In this document: one piece after another, positions 28,005 to 37,495 of the stretch
How positions within the stretch are numbered: position 1 is the stretch's first letter
Layout of the letters: each line of letters opens with the position of its first letter
Assembly (NCBI RefSeq): GCF_040450955.1
Contig: NZ_CP144373.1
Coordinates: 1,406,486-1,470,485, forward strand
DNA from: Thermodesulfovibrio sp. 3907-1M
GTDB lineage: Bacteria > Nitrospirota > Thermodesulfovibrionia > Thermodesulfovibrionales > Thermodesulfovibrionaceae
Length of the DNA: 64,000 nt
Reading direction: 5' to 3'
Program-made: the position numbers and the translations under genes
The notes under the pieces: generated by a model
Databases searched by the model: none
Told to the model about the DNA's origin: nothing
Seen by the model: only the letters and a program-made list of their open reading frames with translations

Positions 28005-28214
28005 TTATTCTAACTTATTAGGATGATATCTGAAAATTTTTGAAAAATCTTTATCCATTGTAATAATTATGCGATTCTGCTGACAGGCTATTTTATACAC
28101 TTCATCATCTTTTATCCCTGATAATCTACCGCGTATACTCAATACATCATGTCCTTGTTCTCTCAAGTATTCAATAATCGGTTCAAATAAGTTCTCATCA
28201 GCAAGAAATCTCAT
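28005..28214 (-). CDS. Truncated DUF5615 PIN-like protein (toxin remnant)
   Basis: The 69 residues match the first part of DUF5615 PIN-like nucleases: FLADENL (Asp6), GIKDDEVYKIA (Asp36-Asp37-Glu38) and ITMDKDFSKI (Asp54, Asp56). Family members I know run to roughly 110-120 residues; here the frame stops at KLE, removing the last strands and helix. The lipoprotein gene's ribosome site follows within about 10 bases. It is paired with a DUF433 gene, overlapping by 4 bases, as in the usual antitoxin-toxin order. It is probably inactive. Confidence 0.75.
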   Translation of the reverse strand: MRFLADENLFEPIIEYLREQGHDVLSIRGRLSGIKDDEVYKIACQQNRIIITMDKDFSKIFRYHPNKLE

Positions 28215-28432
28215 ATAAACACACCAGCTTCTTCATCAGCAAGAGTCGCAGCATAACTCAAACATGCCTTAATATCTTCATCTGTAATGTTAGGATAGGC
28301 TTTTTTTATATCTTCAAAACTTTCTCCTGAAGCCAAGAGTTCAAGAATTATATGAACAGGAATTCTTGTTCCTTTTATGCAGGGCTTTCCACTGCAAATT
28401 TGAGGATCCACTGAAATTCTCTCTACTTTCAT
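28211..28432 (-). CDS. DUF433 antitoxin-like protein
   Basis: The 73-residue protein has DPQICSGKPCIKGTRIPV and YPNITDEDIKACLSYA, the DUF433 signature, a winged-helix-like fold usually encoded before a DUF5615 PIN-like gene and treated as its antitoxin. It is complete, whereas its partner is shortened. GGAGGGC precedes the ATG. Confidence 0.88.
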   Translation of the reverse strand: MKVERISVDPQICSGKPCIKGTRIPVHIILELLASGESFEDIKKAYPNITDEDIKACLSYAATLADEEAGVFI

Positions 28433-28447: not shown

Positions 28448-29341
28448 TTATTCTACATCAATTGCTTCAAAAATTACTCTATTTCTTCCTGACTGCTTTG
28501 CTTTGTAAAGAGCTATATCCGCTTTCTGGATTATTTCATCAATTGAATATCCCTCTTCTCCATAGTATGTGGTAAATCCTATGCTTATGGTGTTTTTAAT
28601 TCTTTCGCCTTTGAATGTATAAAAATCATTTTTTTCAACTTTTTCTCTGAAACTCTCAAGAATTTCTCTTGCTGTATTTTCATCTGTGCCTGGCAGAAGA
28701 ATACAAAACTCTTCACCTCCATATCTTCCAATCAGTGCCCTTTCAGGCATGCTATTGTGAGCAAGATGTATCAACTCAATTAAAACTTTATCACCTGTTT
28801 GATGCCCGTAGGTATCATTAACTTTTTTGAAGAAGTCTATGTCAAACATTGCCAGAGTTAAAGGTTCTTTATAAAGATTGCACCACTGAATCTCCTCATG
28901 CATCTTTTCTAATAAAAAGCCTCTTTGATAGGCTCCTGTTAAAGGGTCTTTTGTTAGAAGGCTATTAAAATCTTTCTTAAACTCAACAATTTCACTGGCT
29001 TTATTTATCTTCATTAAGATTTCACATTTCAAAAAAGGCTCTATGACATAGTCAAAAATCTCATAGTTACAGAGTTTTTCAATGGTTTTTTCATCTTTTC
29101 TCCTTAATATCAGAATCAATGGAATCTCTCTTAGAGAGGGTGCTTGAACAATTTTTTTCAATAACTTCCAGCATGTCCTCAGGCAAAAATCAAGAATAAT
29201 TATATCAGGCTGGCTTTTATAAATTCTATCAATAGTTTCATCATCAATGGGAGAAACGAAAAGATTTTTCACTTCTTCTTTAAGAAAATCAGACAATTTT
29301 TTTATAAATTTTTCTCTATTAGAACAAACAAAGAGATTCAT
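28448..29341 (-). CDS. Receiver-like plus GGDEF diguanylate cyclase
   Basis: The ATG at 29341 shares its A with the pyrF stop; the protein is 297 residues. Residues 1-120 look like a response-regulator receiver (IIILDFCLRTCW carries the Asp) but lack the usual Lys-Pro (VIEPFL). The GGDEF domain (about 130-295) has FDIDFFKKVNDTYGH and RYGGEEFCILL, so diguanylate cyclase activity is expected. The inhibitory RxxD site is absent: Ala occupies the Asp position four before RYGGEEF. It would make c-di-GMP in response to an unknown input. Confidence 0.9.
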   Translation of the reverse strand: MNLFVCSNREKFIKKLSDFLKEEVKNLFVSPIDDETIDRIYKSQPDIIILDFCLRTCWKLLKKIVQAPSLREIPLILILRRKDEKTIEKLCNYEIFDYVIEPFLKCEILMKINKASEIVEFKKDFNSLLTKDPLTGAYQRGFLLEKMHEEIQWCNLYKEPLTLAMFDIDFFKKVNDTYGHQTGDKVLIELIHLAHNSMPERALIGRYGGEEFCILLPGTDENTAREILESFREKVEKNDFYTFKGERIKNTISIGFTTYYGEEGYSIDEIIQKADIALYKAKQSGRNRVIFEAIDVE

Positions 29342-30048
29342 CACTGCGGATTTATCATTGTAATAATTGCCCTCCTTGGTGATGTCTCAGTAATGGCTCT
29401 TCCAATAACTATGTAGTCTGCACCCTCACAAAAGGCTTCATAAGGTGTGGCAACTATTTTTTGATCGTGAAAATTAGCATCTTTCAGCCTTATTCCTGGA
29501 GTTACAACAGTGAAATCCTTTCCGCACAGCTCTTTAATGGTTTTTACTGAAGAAACTGCAGATACAACTCCATCCAGTTCTGCCTGTTTTGCCTTTAAAG
29601 CTAAATTTTTAGCAAGAACTTCCCGGGCAACTGGGGAAGAAAACACCTGAGTTAATTCTTCGTCGTTCAGACTTGTTAAAACAGTAACCCCTAAAATCTT
29701 AGGTGGTGGTATATTTTCTCTGTAAGAATATTCTTTTACAGCCATGACAGCTCTTTGCATCATTTCAATACCGCCTGAGGCATGAACTGTAAACATGTCA
29801 ATCTCATATTGAAGCACAGATTTTACAGCTTTGTAAACAGTGTTGGGAATGTCGTGAAATTTGAGATCAAGGAAAACTTTCTTTCCTTTATTTTTGAGAA
29901 TTTTTAAAATCTGAGCTCCTTCGCTCAGAAAAAGCTCAAGTCCTACTTTGTAAAAATTAATAAGCCCTTCGAGTTCATCAACAATCTTTAAAGCATCTTC
30001 TTTTTTTGAAAAATCAAGGGCAACTATGATGCGACCCGGGTCAATCAT
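29341..30048 (-). CDS. pyrF: Orotidine-5'-phosphate decarboxylase
   Basis: The 235-residue protein has [13 protein letters not shown], the catalytic [12 protein letters not shown] (Asp-Lys-Asp) and TPGIRL, as in group 1 PyrF. It makes UMP. It overlaps dcd by 4 bases and the GGDEF gene by one, so three nucleotide-related genes are coupled. Confidence 0.96.
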
Positions 30049-31844
30049 ATCTTTGGCAGCACTATGCCCTGTTGAGCCTGATACTTTCCTTTTCTGTCAG
30101 CATAGGAGACCTCGCATTCTTCCTCAGCCTTTAAGAAAATGAGCTGGGCAATTCCTTCATTGGCATAAATCTTTGCAGGCAGAGGCGTTGTATTTGATAT
30201 CTCTATTGTTAAGTAACCTTCCCAGCAGTTACTTGACCAGCATGCTTTACCGTTTCTCCTAACATAAAGTGTATGATTTGGAACAGTAACATCATACACA
30301 TAATCATCATATGGAACTTTACTGAATGAATTTTTGTAAATTTTAGGTGTTAGATGTTTCTTTGAAATTCTTATTTTGTATATATCGTGATTGCTTTTAA
30401 CAATGTGGTTTTTTAAGACTTTCTCTTTATGATTTTCTTTTGGAATTCTTCTTATAATTGATGCCCAGCCTGCTTTTAAAATGAGCTCCTGTAAGTCATC
30501 TGCCAGTCTCTTTGATGATGTTGTAAATGTCTCTGTCTGCATATTACCATCGCCAAACATGAAAGCTGAAAGGAAAACTCTTATCTGCCTGCTGCTTAAT
30601 TCCTTAATAATTTTCGGAACAAATTTATCAGATGCTTTACCAAACTGCATAAGATATTTGGCAAGCTGTTTACTGTTACACTGAAAGCCTGTTTCTGTCT
30701 CAATAAAATTAAAAGGTAGTACTTCAAGCCACTTTTTAACAATCTCTTTTTTACTGCCAAAACACGCTATTTTAACAAGATAATTGCCATTTTTTCCTTT
30801 ATAGGCACTTCCTTCAGCAAGCCATAATCCAAAAAATCTAAGCCAGTCATCCATTTTTATCCTTAATGGAGGTAAATAATCAGGGATTGATTCATATTTT
30901 ATTTTTTTCCATAAATTAATACCTACACTGTGACCATTTATAATTTTCCTATTCTTTTTCTTTTCAATAAAACCCTGTTCATGAAGTTTTTCCAGATGAT
31001 ATAAGAATGTTCTTTCAGAAACAGTAACTTCACAGGCTTCATAAAGCTCTTCTGTCTCCACATACTCACCATCAAGACGACTGAGAATGGTATTTCTTAT
31101 TTCAACTCCTCTTTTTTCAATATCATCCAGCATTATGGAAGGCAGTTCAAAATACTCCACATCTGGTGCATTCCATATGCAGTCTCTTTTGAGTTCATAG
31201 TTATGCTTTCCATAAATCTTTTCTGCAGGAATAAACTCAAAATGCTCTCTGTATTTATTTCTAACATACATTAAATGCGCTGGGGTTACTAAAAGGTCAA
31301 TACTTCTTCCTTTAATCTGAATCATCTGTCCTTTAAATCTAAACTTCTGCATTTTTTCAATCTTTTGATACTCAAGCACACCTTCTTTATTTAAAGTGGC
31401 AACTTCTTCATCTCCCCTTAACTCTTCAAACCTTTTCCAGCCTTCTTTTGTTAAAATCTCTGTTTCCCTGTCATAACAGGGCTCAAGAGGCGTTACATTT
31501 ACAATTATTCCGCATCTTGCATAAGTTGATTTCCCAATGCATATTACAAGCACATCTCTTGGAATTCTGAAATACTCCACAGAACGGGCAAGGGCAAAGG
31601 AGTTTGGTGGAATTATGCACACAGGACCTTTAAATTCAACAAAGCTTTTCGGGTCAAAGTTTTTTGGATCAACGACGGTGGTGTTTATATTAGTAAATAT
31701 CTTAAACTCATCGGCAACTCTCATGTCATAGCCATAGGAACTTACACCAAAAGAAATAACTCCTTCTCTGACAAGTCCTTCCTCAAAGGGCTCAATCATT
31801 CCTTTGCGAGCCATCTGTTTTATCCATCTGTCATTTCTTACCAT
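30045..31844 (-). CDS. dcd: dCTP deaminase precursor interrupted by an intein
   Basis: The 599-residue frame splits cleanly. Residues 1-122 (ending NVTPLEP) and 540-599 (starting [18 protein letters not shown]) join into a 182-residue dCTP deaminase of normal length. Residues 123-539 are an intein. The catalytic Glu region (TIEISN) is just after the splice point, so the unspliced precursor should be inactive. The host enzyme deaminates dCTP to dUTP; whether it also has dUTPase activity cannot be told here. It is followed by overlapping pyrF, consistent with pyrimidine nucleotide synthesis. Confidence 0.93.
30228..31478 (-). mobile_element. Intein in Dcd with LAGLIDADG endonuclease and a winged-helix-like insert
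   Basis: The element is 417 residues (precursor 123-539). It begins with Cys123 ([14 protein letters not shown], block A), has block B as TPAH (His190), and ends [10 protein letters not shown]...CWSSN (blocks F/G) before Cys540. The last residue is Asn, but the penultimate one is Ser rather than the usual His. Two LAGLIDADG-type helices are recognisable: FFGLWLAEG (337-345, Glu344) and [10 protein letters not shown] (424-433, Asp432). Both acidic residues are kept, so the homing endonuclease may be active. Residues about 241-300 look like a winged helix ([20 protein letters not shown]) placed between the splicing and nuclease parts. Confidence 0.92.
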
Positions 31845-31849
31845 ACGAT

Positions 31850-33751
31850 CTACTCCTTCTCATCAATTGTGTTTCTTATTTTAAATAAAATCTCCTCAGG
31901 AGATACGGTTTTTTCTACAGAGATAACATCTTTAAGTTGCACTGGATGACCGCTCATTATGATAACCTTTGCCTCTGGTTTTATTCTCTTAATATGTCTC
32001 ATAACTTCAATTCCAGGAATTCCTGGCATAACAAGGTCAATAAGACAAAGGGCAATCTCATCCTTGTGTTTTTCATAAAGCTCTAAAGCTTCATCTCCAT
32101 TTTTAGCTTCATAAACAGTATAACCGTATTCTTTAAGAAAGGATGAGACAAATCCTCTCGTCTGCTCGTCATCATCAACAACGAGAATTGTTTCTTTGCC
32201 CTTCAAAACTTCAGGATCTATGGAATGTTTTGTTTTCCTGTCTTTTGCCGGTAAATATATCTTAAATGTTGTTCCTTTGCTTGGCTCACTATAAACATGA
32301 ATGTGTCCATCATACTGCCTTACAAGTCCGAAAACAGTAGCAAGTCCTAAACCTGTTCCTTTACCTTTTGGTTTTGTTGTAAAAAAGGGTTCAAATATTT
32401 TTTGCTTTGTCTCTTCATCCATTCCTTTTCCTGTATCAGAAACACACAGAAGAACATAATCCCCTGGCTTTACAAGAGGATGAGTGTAAGAATACTCAGC
32501 ATCTATATAGATTTCTTTAAGCCCTATTGAAAGCTTTCCTCCTTCTGGCATTGCATCACGGGCATTTGTAACGAGATTCATAAGAATTACTTCAAGATGA
32601 GTTTTATCTATTTTATAAAAAATTTCTTCCTCAGGAAAATGGAGTTTTAACTCAATATCTTTCCCGATAATTGGTCTTACAAAATCTGAAAACTCTTTAA
32701 GATACTTATTTAAACTGATTTTCTGAACTTCTCCAACTTCCTCTTTTCTGCTGAATGTGAGTAGTTTCTTTGCCAGATCTCTTGCTCTTTCTCCAGCATC
32801 AAGGATTTTTTCAACAAAGTTTTTAAGAGCTGGCTCTTCTATTTTTGTATGAAGAAGCCCTGCAAATCCTATTATTCCAGTAAGAATGTTGTTAAACTCA
32901 TGGGCAACCCTTCCTGAAAGAACACCTAAGGATTCCATTTTTTGGGAATGAATTATCTGTTCCTGTATCTTTTTTCTCTCTGAGATGTCTATTATTGAGG
33001 CGACTGATTTTTTCGTATAGGGAATCATTGCTACACTTAAAAGGACATCTCTAACTTTTCCGTTTCTGTCCTTCAGTTTTGATTCATACTGCCTTGGAGC
33101 AAGGGATGGAGAGATTCTTCTTAATTTGTAATACTCTATCATTTTTTCAAGCATCTCCTCAGCAAAAAACTCTGTCCACTTCATTTTACCTTCAATCTCT
33201 TCTTTTTTATATCCCGTTAAAGCCTCAAATTCTTCATTGGTGAATTCAATGGTCATATCTTCTTCAACAACTATAATTGCAACTCCTACGGATGATATAA
33301 TTGTCTTTTGTTGTTCATAAAGATGAAGAATTTCTTCATCTTGTTTTTTAATGTCACTGATAAATTTCATGAATGTTTCTTTTTGTTTATTAATCAACTG
33401 ACCGAGCATTCTTACGATTTCCACAGGAGAGTCTTCAGATGCAGTTGCTGTAAAGTCTCCTTCATGAATGCTTCTTAATACATCAAAATGCTCACAGATT
33501 CCAATTGCAAGCTCATGAGTAAGCTCTATCATTGCAGAGAGTTCTTCTGAAACTTTGTTTATGGAATTGATAAGTCTTTGAACTGCATATCTTTCACACT
33601 GAAGGTCTATTTTATAAGAAGTATCTCCCTCGGCAATCTTTAATAGAACATCAGAACAAAGATGAAGGACCTCACTTAAACTATGTCTATATTCGCATAA
33701 GGGATTATTGCACTTAAGATATCCACCATAAGGACAGGGATACTGTTCCAT
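31850..33751 (-). CDS. Cytoplasmic hybrid histidine kinase (PAS-HK-receiver)
   Basis: The 633-residue protein has no transmembrane helix. A Cys/His cluster opens it (C6, C14, C19, H23). HAMP-like helical repeats (about 25-135), a PAS domain (about 150-265), a dimerisation helix with phospho-His in [12 protein letters not shown] (about 290), an ATPase domain ([32 protein letters not shown]) and a receiver domain (520-633, Asp572 in CLIDLVMPG) follow. The receiver is shortened after beta4 and lacks the usual KPF. It is 2 bases from the TusA-like gene in the hydrogenase maturation run, so redox or hydrogen sensing is a plausible inference. Confidence 0.88.
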
Positions 33752-33753
33752 TA

Positions 33754-33975
33754 CTAAATCCTTATCGTAACCTTTAGTTTATTTCCGAATTTTTCTATGT
33801 TAAGGATTGTTTTGCCAAGCTTCTGGCACCAGGCTTTTATGTCTTTTTCAAAGGTAGGGCAGTCTCCTATTACTTCTATAACTTCGCCCTTTTTGAATTC
33901 TGGATAAACAGCACTTAGTTTAAGAACAGGGATGGGACATTTTAATCCTGAAAAATCTAAGCTTCTGTCTGCCAA
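33754..33975 (-). CDS. TusA/SirA-like sulfur carrier protein
   Basis: The 73-residue protein has the motif LKCPIPVLKL near residues 11-20, with the reactive Cys of TusA-family proteins, and DCPTFEKDIKAWC further on. TusA proteins carry persulfide sulfur for tRNA thiolation, molybdenum cofactor or sulfur metabolism. It overlaps hypC by 19 bases, so an involvement in hydrogenase assembly or regulation is possible but unproven. Confidence 0.88.
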   Translation of the reverse strand: MADRSLDFSGLKCPIPVLKLSAVYPEFKKGEVIEVIGDCPTFEKDIKAWCQKLGKTILNIEKFGNKLKVTIRI

Positions 33976-34211
33976 GCTTTTTCCTGTTCCTCCATTTCTT
34001 TGAATATTTTTTCAAAAATTTTCAATGCCTCTTCTGCCTCTGCTGGCTCCATCTTATTTATTGCAAAACCTGCATGGACAAGAACATAATCACCAATTTT
34101 TGGCTCTTCAGGAAGCAACATTAAACTGACCTGTTTCCTCAGTCCCATTACATCAACAGTTGCCGTGAAGCCTTCAATCTCTACTATTCTTGATGGCACT
34201 GCAAGACACAT
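33957..34211 (-). CDS. hypC: Hydrogenase maturation factor HypC
   Basis: The 84-residue protein begins MCLAVPSRIVEI; Cys2 is the essential residue that carries the Fe(CN)2CO unit with HypD. GDYVLVHAGFAINKM is the second family motif. It overlaps the protease gene by 28 bases. HypA, B, D, E and F are not in the window. Confidence 0.95.
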   Translation of the reverse strand: MCLAVPSRIVEIEGFTATVDVMGLRKQVSLMLLPEEPKIGDYVLVHAGFAINKMEPAEAEEALKIFEKIFKEMEEQEKAWQTEA

Positions 34212-34672
34212 CTTACCCCCCAGTTTTTTAAAATCTCTAAAACTACACCTACTAACTCACCTATTTTACCAGCTATTGTCTCTGAAAGGTCAAGTCCAAC
34301 ATCTATAACCTCAGGCTGAATACCAACCAGAACGAGCTCCTCTGGCATTATACCCATAAGCCTCGCAATCTCAAGGAGATCCTGCACTCCCACATGATGA
34401 AGAGAAAGCTTCGTTTTTAAATACGGAGGGATCTCTTGTCCTTTTAAAATGCCTATATATCCTGGTTCTTTATGAAAATCAACTATGTCTATCAAAAGAA
34501 CTTTTTTATACTTTTCAATGTATGGAAGAAGTTCAAGCCCCAGTGTCCCACCATCAATTATTTCAATCTCGGGTTCAAACTTATAATTTTTCCTAAGTAT
34601 TTCAATGACTTTTGGACCAACTCCTTCATCCCTTAAGAGAATATTGCCTATTCCGATTATACCAATTTCCAT
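34184..34672 (-). CDS. [NiFe]-hydrogenase maturation endopeptidase
   Basis: The 162-residue protein has GIGNILLRDEGVGP, with the nickel-sensing Glu/Asp, IIDGGTLGLELLPYI and LSLHHVGVQDLL, as in HyaD/HybD proteases. It removes the C-terminal tail of the large subunit after nickel insertion. Here the expected cut is after His548 of the large subunit encoded just upstream. GGAGGAGAG precedes the ATG. Confidence 0.93.
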   Translation of the reverse strand: MEIGIIGIGNILLRDEGVGPKVIEILRKNYKFEPEIEIIDGGTLGLELLPYIEKYKKVLLIDIVDFHKEPGYIGILKGQEIPPYLKTKLSLHHVGVQDLLEIARLMGIMPEELVLVGIQPEVIDVGLDLSETIAGKIGELVGVVLEILKNWGVRCVLQCHQE

Positions 34673-34738: not shown

Positions 34739-36406
34739 CTATTCTTCTCTCACCTCAATCATGTGCATTCCGCATGCCATACATGGATCATAAGAATGTA
34801 TGGTTCTCAAAAGTTCAAGAGGAAGTTTGGAATCGGCAACAGGTGTGCCAACAAGTGCTTCTTCAACAGGACCACGCTGCCCTTTATGGTCTCTTGGTGA
34901 AAGATTCCATGTTGATGGAACAACCATCTGATAGTTTGCAATCTTTCCATCTTTTATAACAACAAAGTGAGCAAGACATCCACGAGGTGCATCGTGTAAT
35001 CCTACTCCTTTACACTCTTTGGGCCATGTTTTCGGATCCCACTTGTCGGTGTCAGCTATCTTTGTATCTGCTTTTTTCATATTCTGGGCAAGCTCAAGGA
35101 TATAATCCTTTGTCTTTCTTGCCATGAGCAAAGTCTCAATTCCTCTTGCAGCGGTTCTTCCAAGTGTGGAGAACAATGCCTCAGGTCCTACTCCGAGTTT
35201 CTTAAGAACCATGTCAACAACTTCCTTTACATCCTTATGCCCTAGTCCATAGGCAACAAGCATTCTTGCAAGAGGACCTACTTCCATTGGAAGGTCTTCG
35301 TATCTGATTGCTTTACCCCAGCTGTATTTTCCTTCAACATTTAGATATTCATAAGGAGGTTTTGGTCCAGTATAGTTGGGTGTTGTCTCACCTTCCCATG
35401 GATGAAGTCCTACATCACCTTTTGAGTATTTATACCATGAATGTGTAATATACTCTTTGAATTTTTTGTGGTCTAATGGTTCTATCTTTGCCAAATTCTT
35501 GTTCTTAATAACTCCACCTGGCAGATACATCTTGCCATTTGCATCAGGCCAGTCTCCACAAGCAAGGAAGTTATTAAATCCACCAATTCCAGCCCATTCT
35601 TTATAAAATGAAGCAACTGCAAGAAGATCAGGTATATAGACCTTCTCAACAAACTCAAGAGCCATATCAGCATACTTGAGCATAAATGCAATACTGTCGG
35701 CATTAAGTGCATTCTGGCTTTCCGGGTCAACTGGTGTTGACTGTCCACCAACAACAAATGTCTGTGGATGAGGATTCTTTGCACCAAGAAGTGCCTGAAT
35801 CTTGATTATCTCTCTCTGAACATCCAGTGCCTCAAGATAGTGGGCAACTGCCATTAAGTTTGCTTCTGGTGGAAGTTTATATGCTGGATGTCCCCAGTAG
35901 GCATTGCTGAATATTCCAAGCTGCCCTGACTCTACAAAAGCCTTGACTTTATCCTGAACTGCCTTGAAGTATGTGGCAGAATTCTTGGGCCATGAAGATA
36001 TGCTCTTTGCAAGCTCTGATGTTTTAACAGGATCTGCCTTTAATGCTGAAACAACATCAACCCAGTCAAGTGCATGAAGATGATAGAAATGAATAATGTG
36101 GTCCTGAACATTCTGATTTGCCATTATAATGTTTCTTAAGATTCTCGCATTATCTGGAATCTTTGCTCCAATTGCATCTTCAACTGCTCTTACTGATGCA
36201 ATTGCATGAACAGTGGTACAAACACCGCATGCTCTCTGTGCGTATGCCCATGCATCTCTTGGATCTTTCCCTCTGAGGACAATTTCCATACCACGCCACA
36301 TTGTGCAGGAAGACCAGGCATCTTTTACCTTTCCACCATTCACGGTGGCTTCTACTCTTAAATGCCCCTCAATCCTTGTTACAGGATCAATGACTAACCT
36401 TGCCAT
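34739..36406 (-). CDS. [NiFe] hydrogenase large subunit (group 1-like uptake type)
   Basis: The 555-residue protein has PVTRIEGHLRVE, the N-terminal nickel-ligand pair RACGVC (Cys60, Cys63) and the C-terminal pair DPCMACGMH (Cys542, Cys545). The last seven residues after His548 are the tail removed by the maturation protease. All four nickel ligands are Cys; none is selenocysteine. Large subunits of this type sit in the periplasm with a Tat-exported small subunit and oxidise hydrogen. Confidence 0.96.
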   Translation of the reverse strand: MARLVIDPVTRIEGHLRVEATVNGGKVKDAWSSCTMWRGMEIVLRGKDPRDAWAYAQRACGVCTTVHAIASVRAVEDAIGAKIPDNARILRNIIMANQNVQDHIIHFYHLHALDWVDVVSALKADPVKTSELAKSISSWPKNSATYFKAVQDKVKAFVESGQLGIFSNAYWGHPAYKLPPEANLMAVAHYLEALDVQREIIKIQALLGAKNPHPQTFVVGGQSTPVDPESQNALNADSIAFMLKYADMALEFVEKVYIPDLLAVASFYKEWAGIGGFNNFLACGDWPDANGKMYLPGGVIKNKNLAKIEPLDHKKFKEYITHSWYKYSKGDVGLHPWEGETTPNYTGPKPPYEYLNVEGKYSWGKAIRYEDLPMEVGPLARMLVAYGLGHKDVKEVVDMVLKKLGVGPEALFSTLGRTAARGIETLLMARKTKDYILELAQNMKKADTKIADTDKWDPKTWPKECKGVGLHDAPRGCLAHFVVIKDGKIANYQMVVPSTWNLSPRDHKGQRGPVEEALVGTPVADSKLPLELLRTIHSYDPCMACGMHMIEVREE

Positions 36407-36424: not shown

Positions 36425-37432
36425 TTATTCTGTTTTTACTTTATTTGCTATACCAGCCATTGCAGCAAGACCAACTGCTTTAGCATAGAAACTATTTTTC
36501 TCTGCTTCTGCATACAGATTATTATCCCAGAACTTTGGCTCTGAACAACCGATGCAAGGATGCCCTGCCATCACCGGCCAGCTAACACCCTCATTCCATC
36601 TAATCGTAGGGCAGTTGTGATTTGTGAATGGACCTTTACAACCCATCTGGAATAAGCACCAGCCCTGTCTGTGACCTTTGTCTCCCCATGCTTTTACATA
36701 CTCACTTGCATCAAAGTGTCCTCTTCTTTCACAGTTATCGTGAATGAGTTTTCCGTATGCAAAAAGAGGTCTTTTGAGTTTGTCAACTGCTGGAAGTTTT
36801 CCAAAAGTGAGGAAGTAAACCACCGTTGCAGTAAAGTTTTCCACATTAAGTGGACATCCTGGCAGATTAATGACTGGTTTGTCCTTAATTATATCCATTA
36901 CTCCTACAGCACCTGTTGGATTTGGCTTTGCTGCTGGTACTCCACCAAAGCATGCACAGTTTCCAACGGCAATCACTGCCATAGCATCTTTACATATTTC
37001 TTTAATGAGATCAACTGCTGATTTCCCACCAATTGTGCAGTAAACTCCACCATCCTTCAATGGAATTGCACCTTCAACTACCACTAAATACTTACCCTTG
37101 TAATTCTTGATTGCATCATGCAGAGATTTTTCTGCCTGATGTCCTGCTGCAGCCATAATTGTCTCATGATACTCAAGAGATACAACATCAAGAACAATCT
37201 GACCAATTGTTGGTTTGCTTGCTCTTAGAATACTTTCAGAACAACCTGCACAATCCTGATATTCAAGCCAGACAACAACAGGTTTTTGTTTTTTCTCCAT
37301 TGCTTCAGCTATCTTTGGAACAAAAGAAGAGGAAAGTCCTAATACTGCTGCAGTAGAAGCACAAAACTTAAGGAAGTCTCTTCTTGAAACCCCTTTACGA
37401 ACCAATCCTTCATAGATTGTTTCTCTCTCCAT
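36425..37432 (-). CDS. [NiFe] hydrogenase small subunit, Tat-exported
   Basis: The start at 37432 follows GGGGGGC and gives 335 residues with the Tat motif SRRDFLK (16-22), a hydrophobic core and a likely cut after AEA. Cluster ligands are visible: DCAGCSE, GNCACFGG, PGCPLN, CERRGH, GCKGP and HPCIGCSEP. The C terminus ends NKVKTE without a membrane anchor helix. No cytochrome b gene follows, so electrons probably go to a soluble cytochrome c or another carrier; that is inference. The large subunit comes along for export. Confidence 0.94.
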   Translation of the reverse strand: MERETIYEGLVRKGVSRRDFLKFCASTAAVLGLSSSFVPKIAEAMEKKQKPVVVWLEYQDCAGCSESILRASKPTIGQIVLDVVSLEYHETIMAAAGHQAEKSLHDAIKNYKGKYLVVVEGAIPLKDGGVYCTIGGKSAVDLIKEICKDAMAVIAVGNCACFGGVPAAKPNPTGAVGVMDIIKDKPVINLPGCPLNVENFTATVVYFLTFGKLPAVDKLKRPLFAYGKLIHDNCERRGHFDASEYVKAWGDKGHRQGWCLFQMGCKGPFTNHNCPTIRWNEGVSWPVMAGHPCIGCSEPKFWDNNLYAEAEKNSFYAKAVGLAAMAGIANKVKTE

Positions 37433-37466
37433 ACATGCCCCCCAAAAAAATTTTTTTCTGTATAAA

Positions 37467-37495
37467 AGTCTATATATTTTTTTATAATTTGTCAA
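37467..37495 (-). promoter_or_regulatory. Candidate hydrogenase promoter
   Basis: On the minus strand, a perfect TTGACA (37495-37490) and TAGACT (37472-37467, 4/6) are spaced by 17 very AT-rich bases. The start site would be about 25 bases before the small-subunit ATG. Confidence 0.5.

Follow-up and report, generated by a model that had tools for sequence, protein, structure and literature searches.

What does a hybrid histidine kinase with a cluster of cysteines at its N terminus sense, and is the position of its gene directly behind a set of hydrogenase genes a clue to the signal? We addressed this question for a kinase gene of Thermodesulfovibrio sp. 3907-1M, using a window of 64,000 nucleotides (G000:C1:1406486-1470485) from the 1.94-Mb genome of this organism. 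An initial annotation of the same DNA had described the product as a cytoplasmic kinase and a candidate redox or hydrogen-linked sensor. The features of the locus are collected in Table 1.

Table 1. Coordinates of the kinase, its parts and the neighboring genes (positions are those of the window).
Feature	Position	Strand	Remarks
Hybrid histidine kinase, 633 aa	31850..33751	-	Cys tip - tandem HAMP-like coil - PAS - DHp - CA - receiver
Kinase residues 1-32, conserved C6, C14, C19, C32	33656..33751	-	14/15 orthologues; partly lost in L049
Two HAMP-like units, kinase residues 20-133	33353..33694	-	AlphaFold2 model; Pfam HAMP in relatives
PAS domain, kinase residues ~149-257	32981..33307	-	Pfam PAS_9 7.4e-9; model; fold search
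Kinase core HisKA + HATPase_c, residues ~278-503	32243..32920	-	H284, N392/N396, DTGKGM, GTGLGL
Receiver without alpha4, kinase residues ~518-633	31853..32200	-	D526/D527, D572, S600, K614 kept; KPF replaced by KTV
TusA-like sulfur carrier, 73 aa	33754..33975	-	Pfam TusA 1.5e-18; CPxP Cys kept in 15/15
hypC	33957..34211	-	overlaps tusA by 19 bases
hupD/hycI-type hydrogenase maturation protease	34184..34672	-	
hupL, NiFe hydrogenase large subunit	34739..36406	-	L1 motif RACGVC
hupS, NiFe hydrogenase small subunit, Tat signal	36425..37495	-	listed start TTG; in-frame ATG 21 codons inward
dcd (dCTP deaminase) with LAGLIDADG intein	30045..31844	-	3' neighbor of kinase
pyrF	29341..30048	-	neighbor
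REC-GGDEF	28448..29344	-	receiver without acidic pair

The open reading frame begins with ATG and encodes a genuine soluble hybrid kinase of 633 amino acids. Its domain order is directly supported: in Pfam searches PAS, HisKA and HATPase_c scored above cut-off, the receiver was matched over profile positions 1-80 of 111, and the residues that define a hybrid histidine kinase are all in place (H284 in HisKA, N392 in HATPase_c, and D526/D527, D572, S600 and K614 in the receiver). No transmembrane stretch was found with 19-residue hydropathy windows, which bears out the description of the kinase as cytoplasmic; the sole window above 1.6 is strand beta3 of the receiver. The N-terminal region of the kinase is present in 15 of the 16 genomes of the genus and in all 11 that are at least 90% complete, and the single genome without it is 63% complete. 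One orthologue (L046:5703-7591) lies in two frames with a break near the HisKA region, which could be real or a sequencing error.

We compared the N terminus of the window protein with those of 14 relatives. L049 lacks the segment and was left out of the alignment, which therefore has 14 rows, the window protein and 13 others with 45-77% identity to it over 150 residues. As directly observed, 14 of the 15 orthologues have C6, C14, C19 and C32, spaced C-x7-C-x4-C-x12-C, and together with C86 these four are the only invariant cysteine columns of the 14 rows. Residues 1-40 contain five invariant columns, and four of these are the cysteines (hypergeometric 5.5e-5; 14 rows). The codons at the cysteine sites alternate between TGT and TGC across the orthologues. 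The window has 55 open frames that are 150 codons or longer, and CX7CX4CX12C occurs in the kinase alone.

The initial annotation had named a motif C6-C14-C19-H23 and had let its proposal stand or fall with the conservation of the named cysteines in orthologues. All four residues are present and the three cysteines are conserved in 14 of the 15 genus orthologues; since their synonymous codons vary, a thiol or metal function is credible. The histidine did not hold up. H23 is a histidine in two of the 14 rows and elsewhere Tyr, Asn, Gln or Glu, so that it was ruled out as a ligand, and the invariant fourth residue is C32. H30, on the other hand, is conserved in 13 of the 14 rows. A conserved set of four potential ligands, as is characteristic of an Fe-S or zinc Cys4 sensor, is thus found in 14 of the 15 orthologues. 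The exception is L049, in which C6 and C14 are gone, apparently through a small deletion just after the start codon, while C19 and C32 are retained and the remaining kinase frame is open. Either the full set of cysteines is not absolutely required or the L049 copy is decaying. Taken together, the cysteine tip makes the kinase a promising candidate redox or sulfur sensor, and a cysteine-based switch is plausible.

How could such a tip be connected to the kinase core? An AlphaFold2 model of residues 1-270 (mean pLDDT 77.7, 11 sequences) contains helices at 20-40, 55-96 and 111-153 with short loops that begin with GD, and then a PAS fold. In the model, this series of helices has the pattern of two HAMP units in tandem, placed directly behind the cysteine tip. 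Pfam HAMP matches were obtained for 12 of the 14 rows (E up to 1, best 4.4e-5), and the window's own row had no match. When the model of the input region was used in a fold search, the best 50 matches were mainly PAS structures, with a WalK model at the top (TM 0.40), and no stand-alone poly-HAMP structure was among these 50. What supports the HAMP reading is therefore the arrangement of the helices, together with the GD loops and the Pfam matches of the relatives. A sequence search of the PDB gave only weak PAS or HAMP matches (E 0.05-0.1).

Residues 1-20 were modelled at low confidence (pLDDT 47-63). C32 lies within the first helix, ten residues ahead of the loop glycine, which we take to be a core-facing position of the first HAMP helix. 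A continuous helix 20-40 would put C19 and C32 approximately 18 A from each other (12 residues at 1.5 A), which makes it hard to draw a single mononuclear site from the four cysteines of one chain. A four-cysteine site would need contacts across a dimer, or a first helix that starts later than modelled.

At the other end of the protein, the receiver is indeed shortened, as had been noted initially. The distance from Ser to Lys is 15 residues compared to 23 in L118, and in the receiver model (pLDDT 93.4) beta4 and beta5 (strands 82-86 and 96-99) are joined without a helix. The acidic pair, the Asp, the Ser and the Lys are nevertheless invariant in all 10 receivers aligned. The receiver had also been said to lack the KPF; this is true of the PF, but all 10 retain the lysine (K614 in the window protein) as EK-T/S/N or DK-S, whereas its context in the other kinases compared is KP. 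In a fold search the CckA receiver 6TNE was the fourth of 550 matches (E up to 0.001), many of them ordinary receivers. According to the CckA study (PMC9981736), a disordered beta4-beta5 linker replaces alpha4 in the crystal structure of this receiver, so that both proteins are without an ordered alpha4. Because its phosphotransfer residues are intact and the CckA receiver also has no ordered alpha4, the shortening of the window receiver fits an intermediate receiver and not a loss of phosphotransfer. The two differ in that the beta4-beta5 segment of the window kinase is shortened and not merely disordered, with KTV in place of the Lys-Pro pair. The window receiver thus clearly illustrates how, in nature, the alpha4 segment can disappear at the level of the sequence without the phosphotransfer residues being lost, which agrees with how intermediate receivers are seen in the CckA study (PMC9981736).

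The likeness to CckA extends to the rest of the kinase. CckA-type kinases (NF046020/NF046026) share the order PAS-DHp-CA-Rec, and a CckA model gave the best NCBIfam score of the window kinase (295.8 bits), followed by PRK13557 (294.5) and the other CckA model (284.9). These scores are far below the family cut-off of 1000 bits, and by score the window kinase is not a member. It also differs in its cysteine tip and tandem HAMP-like coil, and no membrane part was found in it. Because no free-standing HPt domain over the Pfam cut-off was found in the host genome, the onward path of the phosphoryl group from the kinase is uncertain. The three HPt matches over this cut-off sit within frames of 569-883 amino acids, and a weak partial match (23.3 bits) adjoins the genome's most similar kinase. 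The neighboring REC-GGDEF protein is an unlikely target, as its receiver has no acidic pair in the 10 genus copies compared over the aligned N terminus. Three sister-family copies of REC-GGDEF are also without the full acidic pair; L090 keeps one Asp.

These data led us to a working scheme that we consider evenly poised between right and wrong: a soluble dimeric hybrid kinase with its N-terminal cysteines as a redox or sulfur switch, a HAMP-PAS relay and a CckA-like shuttle receiver. C6, C14, C19 and C32 would respond to redox or sulfur conditions, whether as ligands of a metal or Fe-S center or through disulfide or persulfide formation. Any change in their state would shift the first helix of the tandem HAMP-like coil. 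The second HAMP-like unit and then the PAS domain would relay the shift to the kinase core, where it would set the level of H284 phosphorylation. D572 of the receiver would then be an intermediate station for the phosphoryl group, a shuttle or sink as in CckA, and not the switch of an output domain. The chemistry of the switch, the path of the signal and the dimer are what we infer here. If the cysteine tip is a switch, the protein would be a compact soluble module in which a redox or sulfur signal could be traced into a kinase without a membrane, and it would offer a specific candidate for the regulation of hydrogen and sulfur metabolism in Thermodesulfovibrio.

Alternatively, the cysteine tip could have a structural role, as a zinc knuckle or a helix cap, with sensing left to a partner or to a PAS domain that may hold a cofactor, as in an ordinary PAS hybrid kinase. 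The four conserved cysteines form no CxxC and are as compatible with structural zinc as with a switch. The PAS domain is well conserved in the genus, with many invariant columns, and its fold matches include the heme PAS domains of DOS and FixL. Position 208, in model helix 198-213, is a histidine in all 14 relatives, and in FixL and DOS the heme ligand presumably lies in the equivalent helix. Because of H208 we raised our estimate for this explanation slightly, although we still hold it to be rather unlikely. The window protein itself has a tyrosine at position 208, its PAS region (149-257) contains no cysteine, and the partial loss of the tip in L049 without loss of the gene is not what would be expected of a purely structural cap. 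A YH pair at the 208 site is also common in PAS domains without heme. Judging from the aligned residues, a PAS cofactor, including heme, may be possible for the kinase family, with histidine at 208 in the relatives and tyrosine in the window protein.

The switch proposed for the cysteine tip can be set beside related sensors outside the genus. The HAMP-like part had matches in 22 of 295 genomes of the phylum (E up to 0.001): 11 are from the genus, nine from family f10 of the same order, and two from elsewhere, near the threshold. The best f10 match had an E value of 1.3e-16 at approximately 32% identity. The f10 proteins carry a longer cysteine-rich element ahead of the tandem HAMP-like module, and among the matches listed one of the three f10 proteins, L020, contains the two-CW domain NF045718 (37.9 bits, cut-off 35). 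These sensors (L020-L036) resemble the window kinase in having a cysteine-rich element, a tandem HAMP-like module and GD loops, and the PAS domains of L025 and L036 are similar to that of the window kinase. The spacing and flanking residues of the cysteines, however, differ, and homology of the genus tip to the two-CW domain was ruled out because none of the 14 genus rows matched NF045718 at E up to 1. In the window genome the only match to this model was another protein, below cut-off, and our literature search returned no paper on the term "two-CW domain". A cysteine element as the input to a tandem HAMP-like module thus appears, from the protein families compared, to occur at least twice.

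Relatives of the kinase core are much more widespread. They occur in 99 of the 121 genomes of the order (E up to 1e-80, genus included), with 37-48% identity outside the genus among the matches listed. The N terminus of the genus type was absent from the 11 core relatives inspected outside the genus, some of whose loci are cut before the N terminus, and a profile scan of the genome contigs with the N-terminal alignment gave 10 loci, none of them attributed outside the genus. Viral contigs contained no relatives of the kinase, and TusA had no match in PHROGs. A search of the literature on Thermodesulfovibrio hydrogenase and histidine kinase yielded no report of the kinase gene by title.

We then considered the gene neighborhood. 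On the minus strand the order is hupS, hupL, hupD, hypC, tusA, kinase, dcd (with its intein), pyrF and REC-GGDEF, and the genes overlap or nearly touch from hupD onward. The kinase starts 2 bases past tusA, which in turn overlaps hypC, both as initially annotated. The position of the kinase behind tusA is fixed: the TTG start of tusA is identical in all 15 loci of the genus, and the tusA-kinase gap ranges from -4 to +15 across the same 15. All 15 loci have the order hypC-tusA-kinase-dcd-pyrF (in L046 with the kinase in two frames), and hupS-hupL-hupD-hypC-tusA-kinase is intact in all 14 loci that have every gene in view. REC-GGDEF comes next in 14 of the 15 loci; it is absent in L041 and only 133 amino acids long in L043. 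The kinase had been placed within a hydrogenase maturation run, and this proved incorrect, as it follows the last hydrogenase-related gene and dcd, pyrF and REC-GGDEF lie downstream of it.

Several differences between the window and its relatives were seen in these flanking regions. Among the 14 relatives, a dcd frame of intein length occurs only in L039 (G047), and the others have an intein-free dcd of 182-185 amino acids. A phoB-phoR pair lies upstream of hupS in the window and was not seen in L040-L043, L048 or L049, which have upstream sequence in view. At 28005-28432, between the GGDEF and glycine-zipper genes, there is a DUF433-DUF5615 (Mut7-C/PIN-like) pair that is toxin-antitoxin-like by its family names; among the 14 relatives it was seen only in L042.

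The intact run from hupS to the kinase in 14 of 14 loci, with its tight gene junctions from hupD, could indicate that the kinase is a hydrogenase regulator. It would sense hydrogen turnover, maturation or electron flow from HupSL and control the hup operon in the manner of HupT/HoxJ, soluble PAS kinases that adjoin uptake-hydrogenase genes and are paired with HupUV/HoxBC. In contrast to those systems, a HupL search detected no regulatory hydrogenase in the window genome: HupL itself scored 1301 bits and the other matches at most 52.6 bits, so that no second HupL-like large subunit fit to be a sensor hydrogenase was found. The window kinase also differs from HupT/HoxJ in having a receiver and a cysteine tip. 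When the sequence upstream of hupS was searched with a crude pattern, none of 14 loci showed a sigma-54 site.

Comparison with sister families also argues against a regulator of this kind. We collected 20 sister-family loci. In 16 of them hypC and what lies behind it can be read; L086 and L097 break off too soon, and no hypC was seen in L100 and L103. Neither tusA (blastp, E up to 1e-4) nor an orthologous kinase was found behind hypC in any of the 16. In seven of the 20, however, hypC is followed by dcd-pyrF, directly in four and after one to five open reading frames in three. These seven loci have an open reading frame of 213-222 amino acids between hupL and hupD, which in L084 is a cytochrome b (Ni_hydr_CYTB). 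Since the sister loci have hypC-dcd-pyrF without the pair, tusA and the kinase look like a genus-level insertion into an old block.

Divergence within the genus gave a similar picture. Over the related genomes, the identity of the kinase was correlated with that of aroB (r 0.86, 7 genomes with aroB in view), hypC (0.50), pyrF (0.49), tusA (0.45) and dcd (0.43), but not with that of hupS (0.05) or hupL (-0.05); these coefficients are descriptive only. The window hupSL genes share 91-97% identity with their L040 and L041 counterparts and 77-81% with those of the other relatives, while the window kinase is 80% and 75% identical to the L040 and L041 kinases, respectively. The genes next to hupSL also show a pattern of identity that differs from theirs. 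This suggests that the hydrogenase structural genes were exchanged within the genus while the kinase stayed. Given these observations, we regard control of the hup operon by the kinase as improbable.

A better supported possibility, to which we give somewhat less than an even chance, is that the kinase is a neighbor of the hydrogenase by position only. In that case an old hypC-dcd-pyrF-GGDEF block of the chromosome would have received tusA and the kinase, and the pair would serve cytoplasmic sulfur or redox control with no functional tie to the hydrogenase. It is consistent with the seven sister loci in which dcd-pyrF follows hypC without tusA or an orthologous kinase, with the continuation of the block into nucleotide genes in the genus, and with the divergence of the kinase, which resembles that of the housekeeping gene aroB. 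It accounts less well for the fact that the position has been held in 15 of 15 loci despite the apparent exchange of the hydrogenase genes. This possibility is compatible with a cysteine switch and differs from it only on the hydrogenase link. Of the initial proposal of a redox or hydrogen-linked sensor, the redox half is credible by virtue of the conserved cysteines. The hydrogen link is supported by gene position only and is unproven.

The TusA neighbor points to another kind of signal. In staphylococcal NreB the cluster cysteines are spaced C-x2-C-x11-C-x2-C, which differs from the spacing in the window kinase, and we know of no tandem HAMP or receiver in NreB. A closer precedent comes from Bacillus licheniformis: there, NreB is a kinase encoded with a TusA homologue that senses sulfide, and its PAS domain is set apart from known Fe-S or heme PAS domains (PMC9918477). 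This NreB and the window kinase are both soluble PAS kinases with a tusA-type gene alongside. The TusA neighbor and the NreB precedent (PMC9918477) therefore indicate sulfur chemistry at least as much as hydrogen. It could be speculated that TusA hands sulfane sulfur to the cysteines of the kinase, which would read the persulfide load of this dedicated carrier and thereby tie hydrogen oxidation to the state of sulfate reduction. We consider this very unlikely; if it were true, the kinase would be one with its own sulfur delivery protein.

The sister-family loci provided a separate observation on the hydrogenase itself. The HupL L1 motif RxCGxC is a Ni ligand motif. In place of the RACGVC of the window, the L1 motif of the sister families is RIUGVU, with both cysteine codons replaced by in-frame TGA, in 16 of the 17 loci translated (L084-L093, L095, L096 and L098-L101). 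L094 has cysteine, and the count leaves out L097, L102 and L103. No other TGA occurs before the end of these genes, and the C-terminal DPCxxC has cysteine in the five of the 16 that were inspected. Matches with two in-frame TGA codons numbered 17, namely the 16 sister loci and G118. SelB was over cut-off in 19 of the 20 genomes searched, and tRNA-Sec scored at least 65 bits in 16 of the 20. As read from the codons, an L1 motif with two selenocysteines would be unusual; we found no report of such a hydrogenase in the literature searched, which included passages of selenoproteome reviews and of PMC9469722. Outside the window, at G000:C1:1931153, the host genome has a second hydrogenase-like large subunit frame of 510 amino acids with one in-frame TGA. 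Similar frames occur in several genomes of the genus, and the product is possibly a selenoprotein.
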